Shown here: in pieces, positions 2,852 to 38,489 of the stretch
Layout: every line of letters begins with the position of its first letter
How positions within the stretch are numbered: position 1 is the first letter of the stretch
DNA from: a virus
Virus record (IMG/VR): IMGVR_UViG_3300020469_000102
Location: 1-38,944 of that record
Reading direction: 5' to 3' (one strand)
Length of the DNA: 38,944 bases
Translations under genes and position numbers: made by a program
Notes under the pieces: generated by a model
What the model was told of the DNA's origin: nothing
Database searches by the model: none
Seen by the model: the letters and a program-made list of their open reading frames with translations, nothing else

Positions 2852-2880
2852 ATTATACCACAGTTTAGTGGAAAAGTACA
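2852..2880 (-). promoter_or_regulatory. early promoter (sigma70-type) for the 2843-38 unit
   Basis: On the minus strand, -35 TGTACT (2875-2880), a 17-bp spacer ending in TGG, and -10 TATAAT (2852-2857). It is one of ten such sites; this copy has one change in the -35 box. The expected transcription start is about 2845, next to the ATG at 2843. The -35 box lies within the terminator-like hairpin 2871-2898. Confidence 0.85.
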
Positions 2881-4754: not shown

Positions 4755-4783
4755 ATTATACCATAGTTTGAGTTAAATGTACA
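4755..4783 (-). promoter_or_regulatory. early promoter for the 4747-2908 unit
   Basis: Minus strand: -35 TGTACA (4778-4783), 17-bp spacer ending TATGG, -10 TATAAT (4755-4760). The expected transcription start is at or one base before the ATG of the next gene (4747). Confidence 0.9.
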
Positions 4784-9714: not shown

Positions 9715-9743
9715 ATTATACCATACTTTTGGCATAATGTACA
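9715..9743 (-). promoter_or_regulatory. early promoter for the nrdA-nrdB-cytochrome unit
   Basis: Minus strand: -35 TGTACA (9738-9743), 17-bp spacer ending TATGG, -10 TATAAT (9715-9720). It drives nrdA through the GIY-YIG gene, with no further copy until 4783. Confidence 0.9.
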
Positions 9744-21925: not shown

Positions 21926-21954
21926 ATTATACCACGTTTGATTGAATATGTACA
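21926..21954 (-). promoter_or_regulatory. early promoter for the 21894-20665 run of small genes
   Basis: Minus strand: -35 TGTACA (21949-21954), 17-bp spacer ending CGTGG, -10 TATAAT (21926-21931), followed by a leader of about 25 bases with AGGAGTG before the first ATG. Confidence 0.9.
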
Positions 21955-22633: not shown

Positions 22634-23293
22634 TCAGACAACATCGTCTAGTGGAAAAATGTTATATATAACATCCCCCACAGCTTTTGCTATTTCGATA
22701 TGCTCCTTTTGAGTTCCGTTTTCAGACCGTAATTGTATGTAATGAATCCAAGATCTTAGAGTACCATTTACATACATTCTTGACATTGTTAATCCTTCGG
22801 GTAATACAGCTCTTGCTTGTTCTTTAGCTATACCAGCTTTTACAGCCCATTCATAAGCTTGCTTACACCTTTCGATTACAACTTCTTGATAAGATTCCCA
22901 TACGTAATTTATGGAATCTTCTAATGGTAAATCAATACTATTCTGTCTGTTCTTATTATCTTGTAATCTAGCTTCTCGTGTAGTGAATGACATATCCTGA
23001 GTTGGATCTGCATACCTTTGTGAGAATTCTTGAAAAGAAAAAGATCTGTGTCTTAGTATTTGTCTACCGATATCTCTTGTAGTTTCTATTTCTAAACATG
23101 CACTTACCATTTCCAATGGAGACCAGTGTTTATGTTTAATTAGATATTGTACTAGCTTCTCAGCTGTTTTCTCATTGTTTTGATTGCCAGGATTTGATAC
23201 CCTTGCACAATAAGCGACCAGTTGGAGGAGGTCGTCGCTTAACTCTGTCTCCTCCGCTGGTCGACTATATGATATAAGTTTCACATTAAACAT
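22634..23293 (-). CDS. thyX: FAD-dependent thymidylate synthase ThyX
   Basis: A 219-residue ThyX, which methylates dUMP to dTMP using methylene-THF and FAD. The signature RHRSFSFQEFSQR is at residues 81-93. HWSPLEMV (56-63), a typical ThyX folate/FAD helix, and the C-terminal LRSWIHYIQLR, where a conserved Arg contacts dUMP, are also present. Its presence makes a thymidylate role for the second synthase-family gene at 31384-32070 less likely. No strong Shine-Dalgarno before the ATG. Confidence 0.95.
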   Translation of the reverse strand: MFNVKLISYSRPAEETELSDDLLQLVAYCARVSNPGNQNNEKTAEKLVQYLIKHKHWSPLEMVSACLEIETTRDIGRQILRHRSFSFQEFSQRYADPTQDMSFTTREARLQDNKNRQNSIDLPLEDSINYVWESYQEVVIERCKQAYEWAVKAGIAKEQARAVLPEGLTMSRMYVNGTLRSWIHYIQLRSENGTQKEHIEIAKAVGDVIYNIFPLDDVV

Positions 23294-26227: not shown

Positions 26228-26479
26228 TTATTTTCTCCTATATGCTCCTAGCTGTTGTGATCTTTCGTATTTACGAGTTCTTGCAATAGCTTCTTTTTTC
26301 TTTCTTCTACGTTTTTGTGCTGGCTTTTCAAAGAATTCTCTTTTACGAACCTCTTGCACGATACCAGCTCTATCACATTGCTTTTTAAACTTTCTTAACG
26401 CTATTTCAAAAGGCATTGGTTTAGATGGTCTTTTATCTCTAGGATTTCTATTCCTAGCTTTTAAATCTACACTAGGCAA
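26228..26479 (-). CDS. rpsU: ribosomal protein bS21 homologue
   Basis: An 83-residue protein whose centre ([20 protein letters not shown], then [20 protein letters not shown]) matches bS21 of the small ribosomal subunit. It adds about 15 residues at the N-terminus. bS21 lies at the anti-Shine-Dalgarno region and affects initiation; phage copies may favour phage mRNAs, as proposed for aquatic phages. It starts at TTG 26479 behind GGAGGAG, inside the end of the peroxiredoxin gene. Confidence 0.9.
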
Positions 26480-26975
26480 CGAACTCCTCCCCTGGCTCCC
26501 AACTGCATCCAGTTAAGCCTCCAGCTTTGAGTGCCTTTAATGTTCTTAATACTTCTTGTGCATTTCTGCCAGTATCAAGTGCATTTACAGACACATGTTG
26601 AATAACTTGGTAAGGGTCAACAATAAAGGTTGCTCTATAACAAACTCCATCGTCTTCATTTACAATACCAAGTGAGTGACTTAATCCTAAGCCACAATCT
26701 GCAGCAAGTGAATGTTGAATATTGCCGATTAGTGTATTTTCTTGTTTCCAAGCTAATTTACAAAACTCGTTATCTCCACTTAGCCCAATTACATTTGCTT
26801 CATCTACTAAAATATCCATTGCAGATATCTCGGTTGGACAAATAAATGTAAAATCTTTTGGATAAAAATAAATAACATTCCAATAGTGTTTAACTAACTC
26901 ACATGGACCCATGTTATTTTCTTTATCGATTCCCATTAAATTAAATTCTGGGAATTGTTTACCTACTGTTAACAT
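26472..26975 (-). CDS. 2-Cys peroxiredoxin (AhpC/Prx type)
   Basis: A 167-residue peroxiredoxin that reduces hydrogen and organic peroxides. The peroxidatic Cys46 lies in [12 protein letters not shown], with Thr and Arg of the active site ([16 protein letters not shown]), and the resolving Cys157 in [11 protein letters not shown] reductant (host thioredoxin or phage glutaredoxin) is needed. It is first in the unit with bS21, uvsX, gp41 and thyX, driven by its own early promoter. AGGAG precedes the ATG. Protection during infection is an inference. Confidence 0.93.
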
Positions 26976-26999: not shown

Positions 27000-27028
27000 A
27001 TTATACCATACTTTAGTCGGTTTGTACA
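27000..27028 (-). promoter_or_regulatory. early promoter for the peroxiredoxin-bS21-uvsX unit
   Basis: Minus strand: -35 TGTACA (27023-27028), 17-bp spacer ending TATGG, -10 TATAAT (27000-27005). The -35 box lies inside the last codons of the UDP-glucose dehydrogenase gene (stop 27013-27015). Confidence 0.9.
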
Positions 27029-27885
27029 TGGTTAAATTGAATATTTTGTTCCTTTTCTCTATCATCTCTTTCGTATTGAGATCTATAATTATTATTTATC
27101 TCAATTGCTTTATTTAAAAGAGTTAATTCTTTAGAATACTTTGAAAAAGCCAATGTATCTTTAGGGAAACATGCTCCTCCGTATCCTTGCTTTCCATCAA
27201 ATCCTGGAACCTTAGTATGTGATGGTGCAATCCTTTCATCAGCTCCAACTGCTTTAATAATTTTATTAAAGTTTACATTACCATGTGATTTACACACATC
27301 GTATAGCTGATTAAAGAAAGTAACTTTTGTAGCTAAAAACGAGTTAATTGTATATTTAACAAATGATGCTTCTTCTAAAGTCATATGATATGATGGGCAC
27401 CAATTACATAAGCTATATTTATCATAATAACTTTCTAGCAATTCCGTTTGATCTTCGTTGCCACCAAAGATGTGAAACTCTGGATTTACAAATTGTTCAC
27501 ATGCTGATTTTTCTGTCAGAAATTCTGGATTATATACTACATTACACATTCCAGTATACATTTCTATAACGCTTGGTGTTACTGTAGATTTTATGACAAT
27601 TAAAGTTTCTTTACTGCAGTTAGATAACATGCTCATTACTGAATCTAATATGCTAGTATCAATGTCTCCATCATCTCCCATTGGAGTAGGAACACATACG
27701 AATATTAAATCAGCATTGGAATTAACTAGCTTTTCAGTATCTAGTGGTGTATTACCATATTTTGGATCTATAATTTTTTTGTGAACTTTAGTATTTGAAA
27801 ATCCATAATCAACTGCTTTACCTACAAAGCCATGACCTATAATTCCTAATCTTAATCTTCCTTCTAGTAATTCTGCTATTTTCAT
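27013..27885 (-). CDS. UDP-glucose/GDP-mannose 6-dehydrogenase family
   Basis: A 290-residue NAD-dependent sugar-nucleotide dehydrogenase. The Rossmann start is RLGIIGHGFVGKAVDYGF, followed by LIFVCVPTPMGDDGDID, YNPEFLTEKSA, and the catalytic Cys in GYGGACFPKD. The family oxidises UDP-glucose to UDP-glucuronate. It is shorter than bacterial Ugd (about 390-440) and appears to lack most of the C-terminal domain. The ATG at 27885 has GGAGG upstream and overlaps the previous stop (ATGA). Last gene of the hypermodification-like operon. Confidence 0.88.
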   Translation of the reverse strand: MKIAELLEGRLRLGIIGHGFVGKAVDYGFSNTKVHKKIIDPKYGNTPLDTEKLVNSNADLIFVCVPTPMGDDGDIDTSILDSVMSMLSNCSKETLIVIKSTVTPSVIEMYTGMCNVVYNPEFLTEKSACEQFVNPEFHIFGGNEDQTELLESYYDKYSLCNWCPSYHMTLEEASFVKYTINSFLATKVTFFNQLYDVCKSHGNVNFNKIIKAVGADERIAPSHTKVPGFDGKQGYGGACFPKDTLAFSKYSKELTLLNKAIEINNNYRSQYERDDREKEQNIQFNHVQTD

Positions 27886-28625
27886 AGATCCTCCAAAATG
27901 TGAAATTGCGGATTCCAACCATAAATTTTTAATATTGTTGGATCAGCACATGTGTGTTCTCTTTCGCCAGTTACTTCTTTTATTGGTAAGTTATTACCTG
28001 GCCATATTTTATTTGCCATATCTGCTACGTTTACTGGTTTTCCATTACCTACATCAATTGCTTTAAACTTATTTGACATATCCCAAAAGTTTTCAATGCA
28101 GATATGTATTGCTGAGCAAACATCTGCTACATGTGTCCAATCTCTAGTATGATTAGTTAAATAAGTTAGTGATGGATCTTTTCTTAATAAAGCGTCATAT
28201 AACATATCTTTTCTACTATCAGGTCCATAAACAGTATGGAATCTTAATCCAATAGAGTTTACATCTTTTGCAATATGTTCCATAGCCCATTTAGTAGTTG
28301 CGTATGGTGATTGCCACCATTCATATACTGATGATGAAGATGCATATATAATTGGAACATCTTGTTCTTTACATGCATCAAAAAGATATTGTGATGCAAT
28401 AACATTTGTATGCCAATATTCTTCTGGTTCTTCGTGTGATTTACGTACTCCAGCTAATGCTGCTAAATGTATAACCATATCAAATAAAGATACATCTATA
28501 TTTTTTGCGTCTCTAATATCGCCAGTATATTCTGTGATATCGTATTTGTTATAATAGGTATCTAGGAAATGATTTGCTATAAACCCTTTTCTGTGTCCTT
28601 GAGTACCTGTTAATAAAATTTTCAT
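27882..28625 (-). CDS. NAD-dependent sugar-nucleotide epimerase/dehydratase (extended SDR)
   Basis: A 247-residue extended short-chain dehydrogenase. The nucleotide site is LLTGTQGHRKGFIA; VIHLAALAGVRKS and ASSSSVYEWW follow, and the catalytic Tyr/Lys pair is in YATTK. These enzymes epimerise, dehydrate or decarboxylate UDP- or GDP-sugars. Coupled to a UDP-glucose dehydrogenase, it could convert UDP-glucuronate to another uronate or a pentose. GGAGG precedes the ATG. Exact substrate unknown. Confidence 0.88.
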   Translation of the reverse strand: MKILLTGTQGHRKGFIANHFLDTYYNKYDITEYTGDIRDAKNIDVSLFDMVIHLAALAGVRKSHEEPEEYWHTNVIASQYLFDACKEQDVPIIYASSSSVYEWWQSPYATTKWAMEHIAKDVNSIGLRFHTVYGPDSRKDMLYDALLRKDPSLTYLTNHTRDWTHVADVCSAIHICIENFWDMSNKFKAIDVGNGKPVNVADMANKIWPGNNLPIKEVTGEREHTCADPTILKIYGWNPQFHILEDL

Positions 28626-29836
28626 AAAAATGCCTCCAAGCTATTTTCATCTCTATCATAATCATATTTTTTAGCTAAATTATTTTGAAATAAGTATTTA
28701 GTTTCAACTAAATCTCTTCTATTTTCTAACACTGCTTTTACTTCAGTTGCCATATCTTTAGCTGTTGCAAATGGAACATTTTGACATATATGATTATAGT
28801 TTTTCATAGGATCAATAACTTCTAAATCAGTTGGTAATCCCATAATAGCTTTAGCTTCATCAATGTTTAAGTATCTATCTTCAATTGGATGAGCTACTAC
28901 TTTAGGTAAATGAACTACAAATGCTCCAATATAATTAACTGGAATAATTGTACCTCTTAACATAATATTTCCGCCTGCTTCTAATTTTGCATGTTTACGT
29001 CTAGCTTTTGCAGCTTCTCTTTCAAACTCTGGATATTCATCCATCCATTCAGCAATTGTTCCATGTTTAATTCCCATTTTCATTAACCTAGATTCAATGG
29101 TTACAGATTTTTCTTCGTCCTTTACTGATTGCGAATACTCATAATGGGACATTCCACCTTTTACAACTTCTAGCATATATCTGTAATAAGGATCATCTTT
29201 ACTTGGTGTCTTTTTGTTTAGTACTTCCGTTTGAAAGTTACTTTTTACACTAAGTATTAACTCTTGAATTGTTGGTCTTTCTTTATCAAAATAATTTAGT
29301 ACTGGAATTTGATCTCCAAAATGCTTTTTGTCCCAGAAAAAGAAGAATGTCCTTTTTCGATATTGAGGACTGCCATGATTTAAACTCTTTGTTAAATAAA
29401 TCGAGAAGTTGTACCCATTTTCTTGGCCAAGTTGATACAACTTCTCTCTCATGAATGCACCTATCTTTCCGGCTAGACCTGGTGCATTCTCTCCCCACAG
29501 TACTTTTGGTCTAACCTCTTGTAAAACAAACTCGGATGATTTTTCCATCCATTGATTATTTTCGTTTTGTTCACCGTGTGAATTATGATATGTGCTTAAA
29601 CCAGCACATGGACATACAGATGACACAACATCAACCTGTTCTAATTTTACGTTAGGTTCTTCATCTAAAACATGATATGGAATACTTAACCCTTGTTCAT
29701 AATAATGCTTAATTAAGTGTTCTTCATTTCCCATAAATCCAGAATATGTCATTAGATATTCTGGCTTTTTTCCATAAGCTTCGTCTGAAGCTAAAATTTC
29801 ACCACCAATTAGTGGTACTATACCTGCGTGTTTCAT
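28622..29836 (-). CDS. DNA cytosine-C5 methyltransferase-like protein
   Basis: A 404-residue protein with C5-methyltransferase landmarks: VCPCAGLSTY (around residues 74-83, motif IV, Cys77 the likely nucleophile, but A replaces the usual Q of PCQ), GENAPGL (motif VI-like), QYRKRTFFFF (motif VIII, QxRxR) and NHICQNVPFATA (motif X). The N-terminal SAM motif is divergent (GIVPLIGGEILASDEAYG). It may methylate cytosine in phage DNA or have been adapted for hypermodification. It overlaps both neighbours by ATGA. Confidence 0.8.
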   Translation of the reverse strand: MKHAGIVPLIGGEILASDEAYGKKPEYLMTYSGFMGNEEHLIKHYYEQGLSIPYHVLDEEPNVKLEQVDVVSSVCPCAGLSTYHNSHGEQNENNQWMEKSSEFVLQEVRPKVLWGENAPGLAGKIGAFMREKLYQLGQENGYNFSIYLTKSLNHGSPQYRKRTFFFFWDKKHFGDQIPVLNYFDKERPTIQELILSVKSNFQTEVLNKKTPSKDDPYYRYMLEVVKGGMSHYEYSQSVKDEEKSVTIESRLMKMGIKHGTIAEWMDEYPEFEREAAKARRKHAKLEAGGNIMLRGTIIPVNYIGAFVVHLPKVVAHPIEDRYLNIDEAKAIMGLPTDLEVIDPMKNYNHICQNVPFATAKDMATEVKAVLENRRDLVETKYLFQNNLAKKYDYDRDENSLEAFL

Positions 29837-30666
29837 CCTAAAAAATTCTCCAATGATGATGCGTTTTTAGCTTTAATTGCATCTTTATAAGCTTTTGACC
29901 ATTGAATAAAACAAGTAACTCGTTCTTCTCCTTTCCATGGTCCATTTGCTAATACTTTAGTTTTTAATGCTACGTAATCTGGGTACATTTCAGCTAATTG
30001 TCTGTGTACTTGATTACTTAATTCAACTGTTCTATATTCTGAACAACCTCCTTTTGCATTAGTGGCCGATATAGAAACCCTATATCTTGTTGTAATTCTA
30101 TTAGCAAATCCTTGTGTTAACAGCTGTAGATTAGCATGGAAATCTTGAGAAGTTTGTAACTTATCCCATACAATATTTCTTGGTAGATTTTTTGAATCAA
30201 AGTAACAATTAGTCATAATCCTTACATTGTTTTGATGAGGCCAATATTTTAAATCTGGTACTACCCATGATGTTGAGAATCCGCCATGATAGATTTGTTC
30301 CTCGTCGCACCATTTATCAAATGTGTCAAATGCATCGTCATATTCTTCATCAGTCATATCACGAGTTTCCCATTTGGTATCTATATGCTCTGGTGCTGGA
30401 CCTTTATATTTAAAGTATTCCATATCATCATCGAGTACCATATGTCTCGTACTATAAAACTCATCCCAAATCCATTGTCTCGTAGGTGATAACCCTTTAA
30501 TAGATGCTGGTAATTCGAGAACTTTGTCCCCATATATATCGCGCATTTCATCAACCTCGTGAGGTTGTACTGTAAATTTAACTTTTTGTTTCCATTTTTC
30601 AGGTAGATTATCATAAGTTTTTTGTTTATGAATTCTTCCTAATGTTGGTATAATCAAATGTTCCAT
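29833..30666 (-). CDS. glycosyltransferase, TET-associated (TAGT/GREB1-like) type
   Basis: A 277-residue protein resembling the glycosyltransferases found with TET/JBP and base-modification genes in phages. It starts HLIIPTLGRIHKQKTYDNLP, has LPASIKGLSPTRQWIWDEFY, and a DxD-like metal site LDDDMEYF at residues 78-85. SISATNAKGGCSEYRTVEL lies in the C-terminal part. The family is thought to add sugar to hydroxymethylated bases in DNA. The donor may come from the two sugar-nucleotide enzymes downstream. Family call from pattern memory; GGAG precedes the ATG. Confidence 0.7.
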   Translation of the reverse strand: MEHLIIPTLGRIHKQKTYDNLPEKWKQKVKFTVQPHEVDEMRDIYGDKVLELPASIKGLSPTRQWIWDEFYSTRHMVLDDDMEYFKYKGPAPEHIDTKWETRDMTDEEYDDAFDTFDKWCDEEQIYHGGFSTSWVVPDLKYWPHQNNVRIMTNCYFDSKNLPRNIVWDKLQTSQDFHANLQLLTQGFANRITTRYRVSISATNAKGGCSEYRTVELSNQVHRQLAEMYPDYVALKTKVLANGPWKGEERVTCFIQWSKAYKDAIKAKNASSLENFLG

Positions 30667-30667
30667 T

Positions 30668-30964
30668 TTATACTCCTGCTAGTGTTCTAACTAGATTATT
30701 AATTAAAAACATTAGCCCTACTCCGTTTAGTAGAATTAATGCTCTATCTTTCCACATTATAGCAACTATAAGCCATAACGATATTCCAACCAATGAAAAA
30801 TATAGATCATATATTTGCATACCTTCTACACCTCTTATTGACATTGCAAATAATACAAATATTGATGCTACCCATTTTATATACCAATCTTGTGTATACT
30901 TAGGTGTGGCTGATTTAAATATTCTTTTGCTGTTCTTTATTTCTTTTGGATCAAATTCTGTCAT
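30668..30964 (-). CDS. small multi-pass membrane protein
   Basis: A 98-residue protein with a polar N-terminus (MTEFDPKEIKNSKRIFK) and about three hydrophobic helices: WVASIFVLFAMSIRG, YFSLVGISLWLIVAIMW and ALILLNGVGLMFLINNL. No family recognised. AGGAG lies before the ATG within the end of the dCMP deaminase gene. Why a membrane protein lies inside a nucleotide and DNA modification operon is unclear. Confidence 0.7.
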   Translation of the reverse strand: MTEFDPKEIKNSKRIFKSATPKYTQDWYIKWVASIFVLFAMSIRGVEGMQIYDLYFSLVGISLWLIVAIMWKDRALILLNGVGLMFLINNLVRTLAGV

Positions 30965-31412
30965 ATGTTACTCCTGCTTCGTCAAAAAGTTTAATTGTGT
31001 CATCATTACTTTCAATCCATTTTTTAGGTATGATATCTAAACCAGTATGATAAACTACTCTTTTTATACCTACCTGAATTAATCCTTTTGCACATTCACT
31101 ACAAACCGGAAGCCCTGAAATATATATAGTAGCTCCTTGTAGTGATACTCCATTATACGTAGCATTATAAATACAATTCATTTCTGCATGAACTACGTAT
31201 TTGTATTTTTGTTCTTTATTGTAATATCTGTCATCATTGTCATCAATGCCTCGAGGAAATCCATTATATCCTTGTGCTAATACTTGGCCTTTTTCACCGA
31301 TTGCAACTGCACCAATTTTTGTGCTTGGATCTTTTGACCAAGTAGATACTTCCTGTGCTAAGGAAATATATCTGCTATCCCATTTACTTGACAAGATTAA
31401 AGTGCCTCTCAT
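30951..31412 (-). CDS. cd: deoxycytidylate deaminase
   Basis: A zinc deaminase of about 153 residues that converts dCMP to dUMP. The active site HAEMNCIYNA holds His and the general-acid Glu; PVCSECAKGLIQ holds the two zinc Cys. SKDPSTKIGAVAIG and the GYNGFPRGID loop are typical of dCMP deaminase. T4 has this gene (cd). The start is uncertain: ATG 31412 has no Shine-Dalgarno, and TTG 31394 with GAGG upstream is a good alternative. Overlaps the preceding gene. Confidence 0.9.
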   Translation of the reverse strand: MRGTLILSSKWDSRYISLAQEVSTWSKDPSTKIGAVAIGEKGQVLAQGYNGFPRGIDDNDDRYYNKEQKYKYVVHAEMNCIYNATYNGVSLQGATIYISGLPVCSECAKGLIQVGIKRVVYHTGLDIIPKKWIESNDDTIKLFDEAGVTYDRI

Positions 31413-32070
31413 ACACGTGTAAGTTTTGTACTTGCCAATGGATATCACCATGTTCTAATGGTACTCCTTGATAATATAAATCATCTCTTAGCATATCAAG
31501 CACATGTTTCTGCCAAGCGTAATCATTACGATAGCCAAAAATTACATCGTTAGAACGCATCTGTACTACACAATGTAGTGCATTATCTCTTATATAATAG
31601 GTAACTGCATTAGTACAAATAAAGTCGTTTTTACCTTGTTCTTTATACTCTAACCAAATGCTTGGTCTTTGATAGATCATTGATGCTCTACGTGAATCAG
31701 GATTTTCCAATAATTCTTTAAGTACTTTATCATATTGTTTATAATACTTTTTAGACCAAATTAAATAGCCATAGTTTGAATTAATTTCACCATGAATATT
31801 TGCTGTATATTGCCAAGCTTGTGGTGGTTGTTTATCACCTTCAGGGTAAATGTCAGTAATGTTAGTTGATTGGCTATCGTACCAGCGTAACTCATCTTCG
31901 ATATATTCTTGATTAGGTTTACCAAAGATAGCTGGGTCATCAGCATAAAAGTTAGCACCAATCATTTCGATTGTTTTAGCACCAGTTTTATCAGTAGTAA
32001 ATCTTTTTTCACGAAGTTCGTTTTTAAAGTAATGTCTTACTTGGCTAAGTTCCATTGCAATACTAGTCAT
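31384..32070 (-). CDS. 42: dCMP hydroxymethylase-like enzyme (thymidylate synthase superfamily)
   Basis: A 228-residue member of the class I thymidylate synthase fold. Arg127-128 (DSRRASMIYQ) bind phosphate, Cys152 (FICTNA) is the nucleophile, and MRSNDVIFGYRNDYAW (171-186) corresponds to QRSxDxFLGxPFNIA of thymidylate synthase. The Asn that recognises dUMP is Asp183 here, the change that marks dCMP hydroxymethylases such as T4 gp42. The usual PCH is CTN. Start 32070 has AGGA upstream and overlaps the previous stop. ThyX elsewhere supplies dTMP. Confidence 0.75.
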   Translation of the reverse strand: MTSIAMELSQVRHYFKNELREKRFTTDKTGAKTIEMIGANFYADDPAIFGKPNQEYIEDELRWYDSQSTNITDIYPEGDKQPPQAWQYTANIHGEINSNYGYLIWSKKYYKQYDKVLKELLENPDSRRASMIYQRPSIWLEYKEQGKNDFICTNAVTYYIRDNALHCVVQMRSNDVIFGYRNDYAWQKHVLDMLRDDLYYQGVPLEHGDIHWQVQNLHVYERHFNLVK

Positions 32071-32395
32071 TTTTATTCCTGTTAAATGCATCTTTACTTG
32101 TGTCTTGGCCAGGGATTCCACCTCTGCAATAAGCAACAAAGAATGATGCATAGTTAATTAAATCTTTACCTGAGTCTTCGAGTGATTCAAAGTTTGGTAC
32201 GTAATCTTCTGATTGCATTGCTTCCATAACAGACATCATACGCAACATCTTTGCATGCATAATGTCATGAATAGTTGTAATGCCATTGGGGTAGTAATCA
32301 GCTTGAGTTATCTTGGAATTTGGATTCTGATAATCGTTTGATTTTTTAGTTTGTAATTCAGCACACTCTTGTAGTACTTTTAGCGATTCTTTCAT
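32063..32395 (-). CDS. Nmad1-like protein (DUF1599 type)
   Basis: A 110-residue all-helical protein: CAELQTKKSNDYQNPNSK, then ADYYPNGITTIHDIMHAKML, and ESLEDSGKDLINYASFFVAY. The KKxxDY, HAKMLR and ED.GKDLINY blocks are those of the nucleotide-modification-associated domain 1, often encoded with hydroxymethylases in phages; its biochemistry is not known. First gene of the operon, with GGAG before the ATG and an early promoter 25 bp upstream. Confidence 0.75.
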   Translation of the reverse strand: MKESLKVLQECAELQTKKSNDYQNPNSKITQADYYPNGITTIHDIMHAKMLRMMSVMEAMQSEDYVPNFESLEDSGKDLINYASFFVAYCRGGIPGQDTSKDAFNRNKND

Positions 32396-32419: not shown

Positions 32420-32448
32420 ATTATACCATACTTTTCAACAAATGTACA
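32420..32448 (-). promoter_or_regulatory. early promoter for the DNA-hypermodification-like operon
   Basis: Minus strand: -35 TGTACA (32443-32448), 17-bp spacer ending TATGG, -10 TATAAT (32420-32425). Transcription from here covers eight overlapping genes to 27013 with no other promoter of the type. Confidence 0.9.
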
Positions 32449-32456
32449 GGGTTTTT

Positions 32457-32879
32457 TTAGTCTTCTGGAGAATAAATTATACCTTGTTCATTTAAAACTT
32501 GCTTATTCCAAAGATGACCTTTTTCAGTGTCGTCTTTACTTTGTCCAAAATAAGGAACTGCATGGCAATCATCTATCATAGTTTGATTTATACTATGAGT
32601 TGAATCTCCCAAGAATAACTCTCCTAATATTCTGCCAAATTTTCCTTTATCGTGAGACAAAAGTTGTATCTCTTGATCTTTCAATAAGCCTTCAAGATGA
32701 TACTTTGATTGTTTACCATAAAACTTTTCTTCTAGGTCTCGAGTTCTAGATTCTGGAGTATCGATACCCATCATTCTTACTCTTTGTTTTTTGTAAACCA
32801 TTCCAAACCCTAGATCTATATCTACGTCTACAGTGTCGCCATCTACGACTCTTGTAACTTCTACTTTATATCTATACAT
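32457..32879 (-). CDS. staphylococcal nuclease-like (thermonuclease) protein
   Basis: A 140-residue SNase-fold protein. VVDGDTVDVDIDLGFG (11-26) gives the Ca2+-binding Asp residues, RVRMMGIDTPESRT (33-46) the catalytic Arg and Asp, and DKGKFGRILGELFL the second Arg. The family hydrolyses DNA and RNA. No signal peptide, so it would act in the cytoplasm or virion. The ATG at 32879 has AGGA nine bases upstream and overlaps the iscU stop by 8 bp. Confidence 0.88.
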   Translation of the reverse strand: MYRYKVEVTRVVDGDTVDVDIDLGFGMVYKKQRVRMMGIDTPESRTRDLEEKFYGKQSKYHLEGLLKDQEIQLLSHDKGKFGRILGELFLGDSTHSINQTMIDDCHAVPYFGQSKDDTEKGHLWNKQVLNEQGIIYSPED

Positions 32880-33294
32880 AATTGTGTTTCCTATGTGCTT
32901 TCTTTTCTTCCCAATCTCTAATAGCTTGTCTAATAGAATCTTCTGCAAGAACTGAGCAATGTATTTTAATTGGTGGTAATTCAAGAGCCTCTGCAATATC
33001 TTTATCTTTCACGAGCTTTGCTTCTTCTATAGTTTTACCTTTTAACATTTCAACAAACATAGTAGAAGATGCAATTGCTGAACCGCAACCGTATGTTTTA
33101 AATTTAACATCTAAAATTTCTTCAGTATCTGGATCTAATTTTAAGTCTAGTTTCATAACATCTCCACATGCTGGTGCACCTGATAGACCTGTTACTACGT
33201 TAGGGTCATTGGGGTCAAATCTTCCGACACCATGCTTTGCTGGGTTATTTAAAACATCCTCGAATCTGTCTACTACTTTTTTTGAATATGCCAT
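32872..33294 (-). CDS. iscU: IscU-type iron-sulphur cluster scaffold
   Basis: A 140-residue IscU homologue on which [2Fe-2S] clusters are built before transfer. All three cluster Cys are present: Cys43 in GAPACGD with Asp45, Cys70 in YGCGSA and Cys113 in IHCSVLAED with His112. LPPIK (106-110) matches the LPPVK motif bound by the chaperone HscA, so it could dock on host machinery. There is no Shine-Dalgarno, but TATAAATA lies five bases before the ATG. Confidence 0.92.
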   Translation of the reverse strand: MAYSKKVVDRFEDVLNNPAKHGVGRFDPNDPNVVTGLSGAPACGDVMKLDLKLDPDTEEILDVKFKTYGCGSAIASSTMFVEMLKGKTIEEAKLVKDKDIAEALELPPIKIHCSVLAEDSIRQAIRDWEEKKAHRKHNYV

Positions 33295-34259: not shown

Positions 34260-35177
34260 CTATAAATTATTTCTAAATACGAATTCAATTGCTCTTTCAG
34301 CTTCTCTTCCTATATCTCTTTTCTGATACCAACCACCAGTATCATTATCAAGGTCTCTGCATAAGTACTCTATTTCTTTTGATGTAATTGGATATCCTCT
34401 AGACATTGCATTACCTGCAGTTGATACCATAATCTGATACATTTTAGCATACCAGCCTGATCCTTGAATTCCTTTGTAATCTTCTACTTGGTTTTTATTT
34501 ACAAAAGGGCAGTCTGCATATCCTGTCCATGTAAAGTTAGTGTTATTGAGTGTTCCTTTTCTGTGTTCGATGAGTCCTTTTTTAATTGCATCTGGTAACT
34601 TATCGAAAAACGATTCATTTGGTACGACATACTTATGCTTTTCCATGAGTGGCCCTGGGTCCATAATTTGTCCATCGTGTGAGAATATAAAGTTGTAAGC
34701 TGATTTGTATTTGCTTGGTACGTAATACATTCTTGATAAATCTTTTGTTTGTGCATCTGCGATATCTCCTATCTCTTTGTTTAATGCAAACCAAAAATGT
34801 TTAATGTCGCCAACTTCTACTTCTCTAGTCAGTGGAAATATTAAACGAAATTTTGGTTGTTCTTTTGTTGATGATGCAGTTGAATAACAAACATAGCGAT
34901 ATTGAGAATACTTAGTTTCAATATCTTTAATGTCACCTTCGTAATCATCAACATCAACAGCTGCCCAACCTGCCCAATTCACTACATGAGCATTAGCTCT
35001 AGTTGTATCAGCTACATAAGTTGCTGGACTAATTAGAGGAGCATCTTTTTTCTTTTTGTATTTATTTGATTTTGATAAACTATATAGTACTTGCTCAAAC
35101 TGATCAAAGGATTCATAATCCATTCTTTTTTCAGTTTTGTTATCGTATATAGAATCAAATATCGTTAAACTTACCAT
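34260..35177 (-). CDS. primase-polymerase-like (AEP fold) replication protein, putative
   Basis: A 305-residue protein. Residues about 66-80 (WAGWAAVDVDDYEGD) give a DxD metal pair; VCYSTASSTKEQPKFRLIFP and LSRMYYVPSK correspond to later blocks of archaeo-eukaryotic primase domains of the kind found in phage and plasmid replication genes. The C-terminal part is helical with CRDLDNDTGGWYQKRDIGRE. No toprim or zinc-finger of the T4 gp61 type is visible. It may replace or accompany gp61. Start has GAAGG upstream. Confidence 0.6.
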   Translation of the reverse strand: MVSLTIFDSIYDNKTEKRMDYESFDQFEQVLYSLSKSNKYKKKKDAPLISPATYVADTTRANAHVVNWAGWAAVDVDDYEGDIKDIETKYSQYRYVCYSTASSTKEQPKFRLIFPLTREVEVGDIKHFWFALNKEIGDIADAQTKDLSRMYYVPSKYKSAYNFIFSHDGQIMDPGPLMEKHKYVVPNESFFDKLPDAIKKGLIEHRKGTLNNTNFTWTGYADCPFVNKNQVEDYKGIQGSGWYAKMYQIMVSTAGNAMSRGYPITSKEIEYLCRDLDNDTGGWYQKRDIGREAERAIEFVFRNNL

Positions 35178-35556
35178 GATTACCTTCGTGTGATGGAGCT
35201 TCCCAATCGTCTGGTTTTACCAAGTCGGGCACTCCTAATGGGTTTGGCCTTGTTGGTTTCTTTCCAACATTTTTTCTCATGTTTGCATAAAGTACTTCGT
35301 CCCATGCTTTATATGGATCAACACCATATGCATCAAGTGTACCAATTGCTACTACACATAAGTCGATAAGACCATCCACAATTTCTTCTGCATCCATATT
35401 TACTAGAGCAGCACTAGTTTCATCTAGCTCTTCTTGTAAGAAGTCTATTCTAAATTCTAGGAAATCTCTTAGTTTGTCTGGATTGTTTTCGACCCATTCC
35501 CTTGTTCGGTATTTGCCTTGCATATCATATATGTCTTTTACCCAGTCTTTGCTCAT
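35155..35556 (-). CDS. mazG: MazG-like nucleotide pyrophosphohydrolase
   Basis: A 133-residue all-alpha NTP pyrophosphatase. The metal site EEx2E...ExxD is visible as FLQEELDETSAALV and EEIVDGLIDLCVVAIGTLDA, followed by AWDEVLYANMRK. The family hydrolyses (d)NTPs or related alarmones to monophosphates. MazG-like genes are common in marine T4-like phages. It overlaps the Sm-like gene by 4 bp and the primase-like gene by 23 bp. Confidence 0.85.
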   Translation of the reverse strand: MSKDWVKDIYDMQGKYRTREWVENNPDKLRDFLEFRIDFLQEELDETSAALVNMDAEEIVDGLIDLCVVAIGTLDAYGVDPYKAWDEVLYANMRKNVGKKPTRPNPLGVPDLVKPDDWEAPSHEGNHGKFNDI

Positions 35557-35909: not shown

Positions 35910-38435
35910 TTATCCAAAAAAATCTTCAAGGGTAGATATCTCTTCTGATGACCAGCCTACAGCTGATAGTATTGGATCAATCGGATCCAGGAAGGTTTTT
36001 TGAAATTGTAAATCGTAGTCTATATACTTATGCAATCCAAATTCTTCTGGTAAGAAGTCCATGAATGCAATTACATTTTCATGTAAACGATTAGGTTGTT
36101 TCAAATATACGAATTTAATCTTTTCGCCATTTTGAACTTTTGTATACTTTTTAGATAATGAAAGATCATCTATTTGGCTATTGTACAATAATGCACCACG
36201 AACGTGAATTGGTGTACCTTTTCTATAGATGTTTCCGCCAGTACCTCTAAAGTCATTTACTTTTGATATTCCTCTAGGGAATGCAATCTGATGTGCGGAT
36301 AAAGTATTAAAGTATCCTTTAAACTGCTCAATTGCTTTTTGGGTTTCTGCTTCTGAACCAGACATAATAACTTTAAATATTTGTTTTAATGCATCTCGAC
36401 ATGGCTCTGGAGTTGAAGATTTAATAGCTTCAATACCCATAATTTTTAGTTTAGGTGTTTTGTATCTTACACCTTCGTTATCATGAACATTTAAAATGTA
36501 TCGTTTTTTAGCTGTCCATAATCCACGATCTGCAATGGCCTCTCGTTTCATTACCATACGATTTGATACACCGCCTAAAATGCCATATAGTTTATCGTAC
36601 GATTTTTCTAGTACTGGCTCTAGATCTTTTTCGCAAACTTTATCCAAGAAATCAATAGGATTTGGTGGATTAATTACTTTAACTAAATCATCTAGGCATA
36701 CATACAAACTGTCTGTGTCGATTGCAAGTACATAATCTTTATAGGTCTTCCCGTTTCGCAAGATACGATTAAGGTGTCGATTGATGGCATATTCAGCCCA
36801 TCGTATAGTAAGCTGGCCGGTAAGTGTGATAGCTTCTGCGATTCTTTGGTCGAAGAATCTGAAGTATCTGTTACCCATAGCACCATAGAGAGAATTAAGA
36901 AGGATTTTAATAGCCATCTGCCGGTTTTCGCTGATGGATATATCCCTTTCAATCTGGTATAGTTTTTGTTTATCTTCTTTGTCGACATTTTGTAATTCCT
37001 TTTGTGCGTTAATCATTTGTTTCTTAATACCAACTCTTTCATTGTACATTTCATCAATGATCATTGGAACTATACCTGGACGATTAGTATTAAAATATTG
37101 GCCACTAGCTGATAAAGCTTTGCCATTGTTATTTAAAGTCTGTGAATCTGTAAGCACTTCTTCAATATCAACTTTTGTAACCTCTCCATCTGCAATAGTT
37201 TCAGGTGACATGTTATATTGCATAATGATTGAAGGATACAGTGAGTTGAGATCAAAGCTTACTACGTTATCGTGAATTCCTACATGTGGATCTTTAACGT
37301 ATCCGCCAGGATAATTTGATTTAGTTTTATCTTCTGAAAAGGGTACTACAATTTTGTTTTCATGCAACTTGCGGTATATAATAGTATCCCATATAGCAGT
37401 TGTACCAAAAGTGTCTTGATAATTTACACCACCTTTATAAGCAATAGTCATCGCCAGAGTGATTAATCCCATTTTGTCTTCTAATCTATCTACCAACTCT
37501 ACGTCTTTAATATTATAATCAATAAACTTTTGATGATCATTCATATATAAAGAGAATAGTGAACCATGTTCTTCGTAACTTAATTTGTTTTCTCCAAGTA
37601 CTACATGAGCAATATGATCAAGACGATACGATTCTTGTGCACCGTAAGTGTAACCAAATTTTATAAAGAGTTCCATATAATCCAGCATTGAAATGCCTTT
37701 AATTTCGTATGCTGTTTGAGAACGACCTTGTTTAGTAATTTCTCTACGTTCAATCATTCCCCACGGACTTAGCCTTTTAACATATGCATCACCAAGTAAA
37801 CGATGTATTCGATTAACTAGATATGGCATATCAAAGAATCTTGTATTCCATCCAGTAATAACATCAGGACAATGCGAAGGTAATGACCAATGAGTTACAA
37901 AGTCAATAAGTAAATCAGCTTCTGTAGCACACTTTTTGTAAATAACTCGATTTGTTTTCATTAGAGAGTTTTCTACGTTGTAATCGCCTAAACCCCAAAC
38001 ATAATATGTGTTATCAATATTGTTTTTAATTGTAATAGCTGTAACTACATTATCAGCACGATCAGGCTCTGGGAAACCATCATCTGATTGAACCTCGATG
38101 TCGATAGTAGTAACATTAATTAGATTACGATTAAACTCAATGTGTCCAGGATATTCATCATTAATAAAGGCAGATATGTAACGAGTGTTACCATAGATAT
38201 CTCTACCTGCTACGTGTTTGTTTTGATTTACCCATTCATTAGCATCTCTCATAGAATCAAAATGTACTTCTCCAACTGGAGTATCATCTAGTGCTTTCCA
38301 ATTGGTAGGTCGATTTGTTGAAACGTAAAGAGTGGGTTTGTATTTAATTTTTTGTTGGATTCTTTTACCATTGTCGTAACCACGATATAATAGCATATTG
38401 CCATATCGCGAAACGTTAGTGTAGAATTTCATCAT
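35910..38435 (-). CDS. 43: DNA polymerase gp43 (family B)
   Basis: An 841-residue family B replicative polymerase with proofreading. Exonuclease motif I is TTIDIEVQSDDGF and motif II GWNTRFFDMPYLV; polymerase motif A is SFDLNSLYPSII, motif B IKILLNSLYGAMGN, and motif C LAIDTDSLYV with the catalytic Asp pair. The N-terminus (MMKFYTNVSRYGN) and length match marine T4-like gp43. Two adjacent ATG codons are possible starts; AAAAGG lies upstream. It has its own early promoter. Confidence 0.97.
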   Translation of the reverse strand: MMKFYTNVSRYGNMLLYRGYDNGKRIQQKIKYKPTLYVSTNRPTNWKALDDTPVGEVHFDSMRDANEWVNQNKHVAGRDIYGNTRYISAFINDEYPGHIEFNRNLINVTTIDIEVQSDDGFPEPDRADNVVTAITIKNNIDNTYYVWGLGDYNVENSLMKTNRVIYKKCATEADLLIDFVTHWSLPSHCPDVITGWNTRFFDMPYLVNRIHRLLGDAYVKRLSPWGMIERREITKQGRSQTAYEIKGISMLDYMELFIKFGYTYGAQESYRLDHIAHVVLGENKLSYEEHGSLFSLYMNDHQKFIDYNIKDVELVDRLEDKMGLITLAMTIAYKGGVNYQDTFGTTAIWDTIIYRKLHENKIVVPFSEDKTKSNYPGGYVKDPHVGIHDNVVSFDLNSLYPSIIMQYNMSPETIADGEVTKVDIEEVLTDSQTLNNNGKALSASGQYFNTNRPGIVPMIIDEMYNERVGIKKQMINAQKELQNVDKEDKQKLYQIERDISISENRQMAIKILLNSLYGAMGNRYFRFFDQRIAEAITLTGQLTIRWAEYAINRHLNRILRNGKTYKDYVLAIDTDSLYVCLDDLVKVINPPNPIDFLDKVCEKDLEPVLEKSYDKLYGILGGVSNRMVMKREAIADRGLWTAKKRYILNVHDNEGVRYKTPKLKIMGIEAIKSSTPEPCRDALKQIFKVIMSGSEAETQKAIEQFKGYFNTLSAHQIAFPRGISKVNDFRGTGGNIYRKGTPIHVRGALLYNSQIDDLSLSKKYTKVQNGEKIKFVYLKQPNRLHENVIAFMDFLPEEFGLHKYIDYDLQFQKTFLDPIDPILSAVGWSSEEISTLEDFFG

Positions 38436-38460: not shown

Positions 38461-38489
38461 ATTATACCATAGTTTTATCATAATGTACA
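38461..38489 (-). promoter_or_regulatory. early promoter for DNA polymerase
   Basis: Minus strand: -35 TGTACA (38484-38489), 17-bp spacer ending TATGG, -10 TATAAT (38461-38466). The leader is about 20 bases and carries AAAAGG before the polymerase ATG. Confidence 0.92.

Follow-up and report, generated by a model that had tools for sequence, protein, structure and literature searches.

A marine T4-like virus operon predicted to make uronosyl-5-hydroxymethylcytosine from its own sugar donor

Between its DNA polymerase gene and uvsX, a marine T4-like bacterial virus has candidate base-modification genes gathered in one compact operon, which raises the question of what base these genes make and which sugar they would place on it. 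The window analysed here is the whole 38,944-nucleotide stretch of the IMG/VR record IMGVR_UViG_3300020469_000102. In a gene-order comparison, the same polymerase-uvsX interval houses base-modification genes in T4 (43-42-b-gt-uvsX), T6 (43-imm-42-ggt(TAGT)-uvsX) and RB69. On the sequence evidence, we think it probable that the operon makes 5-hydroxymethylcytosine (hmC) and decorates it as uronosyl-5-hydroxymethylcytosine.

An ORF check of the window found eight minus-strand ORFs, overlapping or abutting (Table 1). The minus strand of the window holds all seven copies of the promoter motif TGTACA-N9-AAGTATGGTATAAT (at most 3 mismatches), against 0 expected by chance from 100 shuffles, and since two exact copies bracket exactly these eight genes, the eight form one unit. 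The eight-gene operon behind a single early promoter is real, as the original prediction had it, with ORFs, overlaps and promoter motif in agreement. The peroxiredoxin and S21 genes lie beyond the second promoter, and both were dropped as operon parts for that reason. A nucleotide search of phage records with the operon matched only fragments of the hydroxymethylase (HMase) region. Gene order is kept in dozens of IMG/VR loci, and distant relatives retain the order HMase-deaminase-TAGT-SDR-Ugd. The DUF6552 and Nmad1-like genes are variable, the core being HMase, deaminase, glycosyltransferase, SDR and Ugd; the variable DUF6552 was set aside as a part of the system. Seven of the eight proteins have family matches above Pfam cut-offs. 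The Nmad1 call is weak: a profile search gave no Pfam match for the window protein, and with a homologue in locus L119 the match to DUF1599 ("Nucleotide modification associated domain 1") has E = 0.0013 and does not reach the cut-off. The gene lies directly upstream of the HMase in three relatives (L119, L121, L124).

Table 1. Operon genes, promoters and related genes in the window
Feature	Position	Strand	Evidence or remark
Promoter, early-type, TGTACATTTGTTGAAAAGTATGGTATAAT	32420..32448	-	Exact motif match; ends 25 bp before first ATG
Nmad1/DUF1599-like small protein (weak assignment)	32063..32395	-	PHROG 18404 and 1485
dCMP hydroxymethylase (HMase), T4 gp42 type	31384..32070	-	54% identity to T4 gp42; C146, T147, D177
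dCMP deaminase	30951..31409	-	PF00383 (dCMP_cyt_deam_1, 74 bits), PHROG 174
Small membrane protein, DUF6552	30668..30964	-	PF20189, 70 bits; absent in L015-L019
TAGT-family DNA glycosyltransferase, predicted sugar attachment to hmC	29833..30666	-	PF20691, PHROG 842
C5-methyltransferase-like protein, HMase-linked family	28622..29836	-	PF00145 (C-5 cytosine DNA methylase), 60 bits
SDR, predicted UDP-glucuronate 4-epimerase-like	27882..28625	-	Epimerase/SDR 84 bits; best PDB 5u4q, 6kv9 (MoeE5), 6zl6
UDP-glucose 6-dehydrogenase (Ugd), short form	27013..27885	-	PF03721, PF00984
Promoter, second copy	27000..27028	-	Exact match; precedes next gene, peroxiredoxin; marks unit's end
ThyX (Thy1), separate thymidylate synthase	22634..23293	-	PF02511, 142 bits
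PRA-PH/MazG-like pyrophosphohydrolase, candidate dCTPase, outside operon	35155..35556	-	PF01503

Synthesis of hm-dCMP by a T4 gp42-type dCMP hydroxymethylase is strongly supported by sequence comparison. The enzyme, originally called dCMP-hydroxymethylase-like, matches the thymidylate synthase (TS) superfamily with 58 bits, over the Pfam cut-off, and the PDB 1b49/1b5e group with E = 4e-73; its start is best set at 32070, where it aligns with T4 gp42. A separate ThyX elsewhere in the window means that a TS-like operon gene is unneeded for dTMP. The HMase carries the catalytic Cys, T147 and, in the numbering of E. coli ThyA, the Asp at position 177 that serves as a criterion for cytosine specificity (PMC8670742). 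Its identity to T4 gp42 is 54%, against 26% to the RB69 TS homologue, which is of the 5-hydroxy-dCMP synthase type (PMC13390438), and an RB69-like 5-hydroxycytosine route is ruled out on this account. The deaminase, whose start is probably near 31409, adjoins the HMase in nearly all relatives, and in the MetaGPA study (PMC8670742) the PRA-PH/MazG family is found alongside HMase and deaminase on modified contigs. The HMase would convert dCMP to hm-dCMP, dCMP and dCTP would be drained by the deaminase, perhaps together with the MazG-like enzyme, and the phage polymerase would then use the hm-dC triphosphate.

The candidate for sugar attachment scores 57.4 bits against PF20691 (curated cut-off 27.5), and a motif alignment finds its DDD and GGCS..R motifs also in T6 ggt. 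By these matches it belongs to the T-even-type DNA glycosyltransferase family, that of T6 ggt. Profiles thus place this protein and the HMase in the TAGT and T4 gp42-type families that the original prediction had named; it had also seen no alpha- or beta-glucosyltransferase of the T4 kind, but the TAGT is itself a T-even-type DNA glycosyltransferase. Its AF2 model is poor (pLDDT 60), and a solid PDB match was not found with it. No PF12851 (TET/JBP dioxygenase) match was found in 10 relatives, in a search run without a positive control. Beside the TAGT, the HMase would stand in for a TET enzyme. AGT or BGT was not found in TAGT-type relatives, and in one 137-kb relative (G002) the TAGT is the only DNA glycosyltransferase found. 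Elsewhere an AGT-like gene lies directly ahead of SDR-Ugd-MTase-uvsX (L133, L135, L137, L140, L141, L152, L154), its identity checked against the T4 alpha-glucosyltransferase family for L140 (111 bits) and the contigs of L133 and L154. The epimerase, dehydrogenase and methylase-like genes thus stay when a T4-type DNA alpha-glucosyltransferase fills the TAGT slot, an exchange from which the proposal of DNA glycosylation gains.

It is the two sugar-nucleotide genes that suggest which sugar is used. The Ugd, whose start is probably 27885, has UDPG_MGDP_dh matches of 68 and 58 bits, above Pfam cut-offs, and keeps the catalytic Cys, Lys and Asn, with K172, N176, C234 and D238 invariant among relatives. 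Because the C-terminal UDP-binding domain is absent in the window protein and all relatives, we call the product Ugd-like and infer its function. At 247 aa the SDR is short, and it is also divergent; it has the triad residues Y108 and K112, and SSS where decarboxylases carry Glu (Ser, not Thr, at position 126, and no Glu at 128). Two of its best PDB matches, 5u4q and 6zl6, are UDP-glucuronate 4-epimerases. A third, MoeE5, is a known UDP-glucuronate 4-epimerase (PMC7984243), and decarboxylases are absent among the 60 best. In L058-L064 the same cassette holds a different, full-length SDR (signature TVYGPWGRPDM) that better matches UDP-glucuronate 4-epimerases. This favours the SDR being closest to those epimerases, not to decarboxylases, so that we predict UDP-galacturonate (or UDP-glucuronate) as the donor rather than a pentose; of the "uronic or pentose" sugar first suggested, only the uronic half is favoured. 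As judged from families and active-site residues, the short Ugd would oxidise UDP-glucose to UDP-glucuronate and the SDR would epimerise it at C4 to UDP-galacturonate; family, T6 ggt synteny and the AGT exchange suggest that the TAGT would then link the uronic acid to hmC of the phage DNA, at the hydroxymethyl group. The product would be a negatively charged uronosyl-hmC, shielding the DNA from host nucleases. A precedent is Bacillus phage SP-15, which has glucuronate on its DNA and a Ugd of its own (PMC5977210), but its modified base is a uracil (glucuronosylated dihydroxypentyluracil), its gene cluster is of teichuronic type and its Ugd gene is longer.

The closest known systems are those of the T-even phages, which share HMase, deaminase, DNA glycosyltransferase and gene order (gp42 with AGT/BGT in T4, with ggt/TAGT in T6). 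They use host UDP-glucose, whereas here Ugd and an epimerase-type SDR lie within the operon, together with an extra C5-methyltransferase-like protein. It is possible, and in our view unlikely, that the TAGT likewise glucosylates hmC from host UDP-glucose while Ugd and SDR serve another role, such as host surface sugars. The T6 TAGT does transfer glucose (PMC13390438), and four loci (L241, L242, L258, L283) have TAGT and AGT without Ugd or SDR. HMase went undetected in some Ugd-bearing T4-like phages with or without SDR (C48C1, several long contigs), and one long contig (L149) has TAGT, SDR and Ugd without a detectable HMase, which counts against a strict link between sugar genes and HMase. Only 9 of 47 HMase loci have Ugd, which makes the sugar cassette optional and leaves position as its only tie to DNA. 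Against the use of glucose, however, Ugd and SDR share the TAGT's transcription unit and remain adjacent to a DNA glycosyltransferase after the TAGT is exchanged for AGT. Transfer of glucuronic acid itself, with the SDR yielding a minor or different donor, is a less probable reading: UDP-glucuronate needs Ugd alone and the window SDR is divergent, but an epimerase-type SDR is kept beside Ugd in two divergent versions. A xylose or arabinose made by UDP-glucuronate decarboxylation, by analogy with RB69 and Thanatos, where the sugar donor is also phage-made and pentose-type cytosine modifications are known (PMC12838424, PMC6024577), is very improbable and was rejected on SDR family and residues; moreover, the RB69 module in the same interval consists of NTP-transferase, kinase and isomerase genes, with no Ugd or 4-epimerase annotated there, beside the distant TS homologue. 

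The remaining operon gene was correctly recognised as C5-methyltransferase-like, but it is no stray passenger in the set: an HMase lies within 7 kb of it in 22 of 25 non-redundant loci (from the best 80 loci). The protein has a fold match to M.HaeIII/M.HhaI, and catalytic motifs IV (PC), VI (EN) and VIII (QxRxR) are intact, with Cys77, Glu116, Arg160 and Arg162 in 83/83 members. The cofactor motifs, placed by HMM alignment, are altered, with [VI]PLIGG replacing FxGxGG in SAM motif I, Ser/Thr replacing the motif II Glu in 82/83, and Gln (Gln352) replacing the motif X Asn in all 83. Judged by these residues and the link to HMase, the proteins form a new family. Ordinary C5 methylation makes little sense where the cytosine C5 is already substituted, as it is in hmC, so that the protein may act on hydroxymethylcytosine itself. 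It would bind and flip cytosines in the modified DNA, and the changes at the cofactor site point away from ordinary methylation, towards either a reaction on hmC or the use of an unusual cofactor; the hydroxymethyl group might, for example, be replaced or removed, or a group added from an unusual donor. More tentatively, the family could be a new enzyme on hmC that combines Cys/Glu base flipping with a rebuilt cofactor site and, beside a uronosyltransferase, yields a doubly novel base. CmoX of Synechococcus phage S-B43 is likewise a phage C5-methyltransferase homologue with a changed cofactor site, and the family profile matches 8yf3. CmoX, however, acts on C, whereas this family travels with HMase; CmoX has Arg350 where the family has Gln352 (HhaI Asn304 position), and no CmoA match was found in nine relatives, which leaves CmoX-type carboxymethylation unsupported.

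To our knowledge, phages of the hmC type carry glucose on their DNA or, attached differently, pentoses, and we know of no description of a uronic acid on hmC. If our hypothesis is true, the phage would itself supply the donor for a DNA sugar that bears a charge, the set of host nucleases that the DNA resists would be expected to differ, and the glycosyltransferase would have a new specificity that could serve to label hmC. Since TAGT and AGT are exchanged ahead of the same SDR-Ugd pair, the question can be tested directly, and the HMase-linked C5-methyltransferase-like family, with candidates on more than 590 stretches in one viral collection, would be an enzyme widespread among hmC phages and still uncharacterised.

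All eight genes of the predicted minus-strand run are present between 27013 and 32395 as overlapping or abutting open reading frames and, judged from sequence, are one unit. In a profile search, family matches exceeded the Pfam cut-offs in seven of the eight, and the family calls stand with a weak assignment for the Nmad1-like protein. A single early promoter, as the original prediction had it, is reasonable, since the window, a 38.9-kb virus record, has seven copies of the strongly conserved 29-base motif TGTACA-N9-AAGTATGGTATAAT, on the minus strand only (none expected by chance), with exact matches at both operon boundaries: one lies 25 bp ahead of the first gene, the other immediately ahead of the peroxiredoxin gene, the next one after that for UDP-glucose dehydrogenase (Ugd). 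The operon lies between the DNA polymerase and UvsX/helicase genes. T4 has gene 42 and b-gt in this interval, T6 has gene 42 and ggt, which encodes a TAGT protein, and RB69 has an arabinose module (PMC6024577); we therefore regard it as the classical site of base-modification genes in T4-like phages.

Features of the window and of related viral loci
Feature	Record	Position	Strand	Remark
Promoter motif copies	window	2852-2880, 4755-4783, 9715-9743, 21926-21954, 27000-27028, 32420-32448, 38461-38489	minus	
ThyX	window	22634-23293		separate dTMP maker
Ribosomal protein S21 homologue	window	26228-26479		beside uvsX; PF01165
Peroxiredoxin	window	26472-26975		operon flank
NifU-like Fe-S scaffold	window	32872-33294		operon flank; 53% match to a locus so annotated in C48C1, a T4-like phage
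PF01503 protein	window	35155-35556		profile match
DNA polymerase	window	35910-38435		
S-TIM54 'ThyA'	L003	4114-4956		
Radical-SAM-like genes and small partners	L140; L133	3979-6133; 4218-6404		between deaminase and AGT
Uracil-DNA-glycosylase-superfamily-like small protein	L140; L133; L152	6169-6546; 6440-6811; 6437-6844		just before AGT
HMase-deaminase-TAGT-AGT	L241, L242, L258, L283			no Ugd/SDR; MTase in three of four

The phage almost certainly hydroxymethylates cytosine, as first proposed. Its thymidylate synthase (TS)-like protein is 54% identical to T4 gp42, the dCMP hydroxymethylase (HMase), versus 26% to the RB69 TS homologue, and carries C146, T147 and D177 (E. coli TS numbering); residues 147 and 177 separate cytosine-modifying from normal enzymes (PMC8670742). 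In modified contigs, the PF01503 family is found together with HMase and deaminase (PMC8670742). The window HMase has tblastn matches in 1,261 of 50,697 phage records. We also note that the 'ThyA' of cyanophage S-TIM54 has Asp at position 177, and hence may use dCMP rather than dUMP.

It is highly probable that the operon also glycosylates phage DNA, in keeping with the original prediction. The window TAGT (PF20691, PHROG 842) has the DDD, HG and GGCS..R motifs in common with T6 ggt. TAGT is the enzyme by which T6-like phages presumably add the second glucose (PMC13390438). The 136.8-kb relative G002 yielded no homologue of the T4-type DNA alpha- and beta-glucosyltransferases (AGT, BGT) or of gp56; TAGT would therefore need to act directly on 5-hydroxymethylcytosine (hmC). 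In loci L133, L135, L137, L140, L141, L152 and L154 a different protein occupies the place between deaminase and SDR; that of L140 is an AGT (PF11440, 111 bits; PHROG 2888), and the PF11440 cut-off is exceeded in the contigs of L133, L140, L154 and also L124. That two DNA glycosyltransferase families replace each other ahead of the same SDR, Ugd and C5-methyltransferase-like (MTase) genes argues most strongly for a role of SDR and Ugd in supplying DNA glycosylation. Some relatives with AGT carry further genes beside it, with radical-SAM-like (PF04055, E 0.003) and uracil-DNA-glycosylase-like (PF03167, E 0.002, tested in L140) matches, both below cut-off.

The sugar had been predicted to be uronic or pentose, and we consider it probably uronic rather than neutral, with about an even chance that it is specifically galacturonic. 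The best solved relatives of the window SDR profile are 5u4q, 6kv9 (MoeE5) and 6zl6, and the full-length SDR of the same cassette in locus L059 best matches the same enzymes. UDP-GlcA 4-epimerases hold the carboxylate by Thr126, Ser127 and Ser128, with Glu at the third position in decarboxylases (PMC7984243). Because the SDR has epimerase relatives and its family shows Ser-Ser-Ser at this site, with the decarboxylase Glu absent, which speaks against the pentose, UDP-galacturonate is our best guess for the donor. A literature search limited to open-licence papers found no report of uronosyl-hmC. Ugd keeps its catalytic residues, but the C-terminal domain is missing from it in all relatives. Such short Ugd genes beside uvsX are very common in viral contigs (at least 600 matches), often without HMase (L078-L157; e.g. 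L098, L104, L108).

The methyltransferase-like call held up as well: the protein is predicted to fold like M.HaeIII/M.HhaI, and 83 of 83 sequences have the catalytic Cys, the Glu and two Arg residues unchanged. By HMM alignment, SAM motif I reads [VI]PLIGG, the motif II Glu is Ser/Thr, and the motif X Asn is Gln in all 83; at this position, which sets cofactor choice, CmoX instead has Arg350 (PMC12783734). Searching with this family alone (best 80 among the matches listed) gave 25 non-redundant loci of at least 10 kb, of which 22 have HMase 1.3-6.6 kb upstream; two of the other three end about 1-2 kb upstream of the MTase gene. Against the 1,261 phage records that match HMase, this family has eight matches in such records, in S-TIM phages, phage G and XG4. 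A TS homologue with D177 is present in all three genomes checked (read by alignment in S-TIM54 and XG4, and by visual inspection for the phage G paralogue). In XG4 the gene comes last in a series with HMase, NTP-transferase/kinase and two glycosyltransferase-like proteins. As hmC offers a methylase no free C5, the protein would treat the remaining cytosines or act on hmC. Without SAM, M.HhaI-like enzymes are able to react with hmC.

Searches with TAGT and with MTase recovered the same conserved operon. Among the matches listed, 46 Ugd loci of at least 10 kb included SDR in 30 and HMase in 23, and 13 had neither SDR, HMase nor TAGT nearby. The HMase search (47 non-redundant loci) found MTase in 27, TAGT in 10, Ugd in 9 and AGT in 6; four combine TAGT and AGT without Ugd/SDR and are candidate marine T6-like diglycosylation loci. 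Counter-examples without HMase are C48C1 and L149 (TAGT, SDR and Ugd on an 82-kb contig); the records compared may be incomplete. On these co-occurrence counts, hydroxymethylation plus a DNA glycosyltransferase is the base system, and SDR-Ugd an optional sugar cassette.
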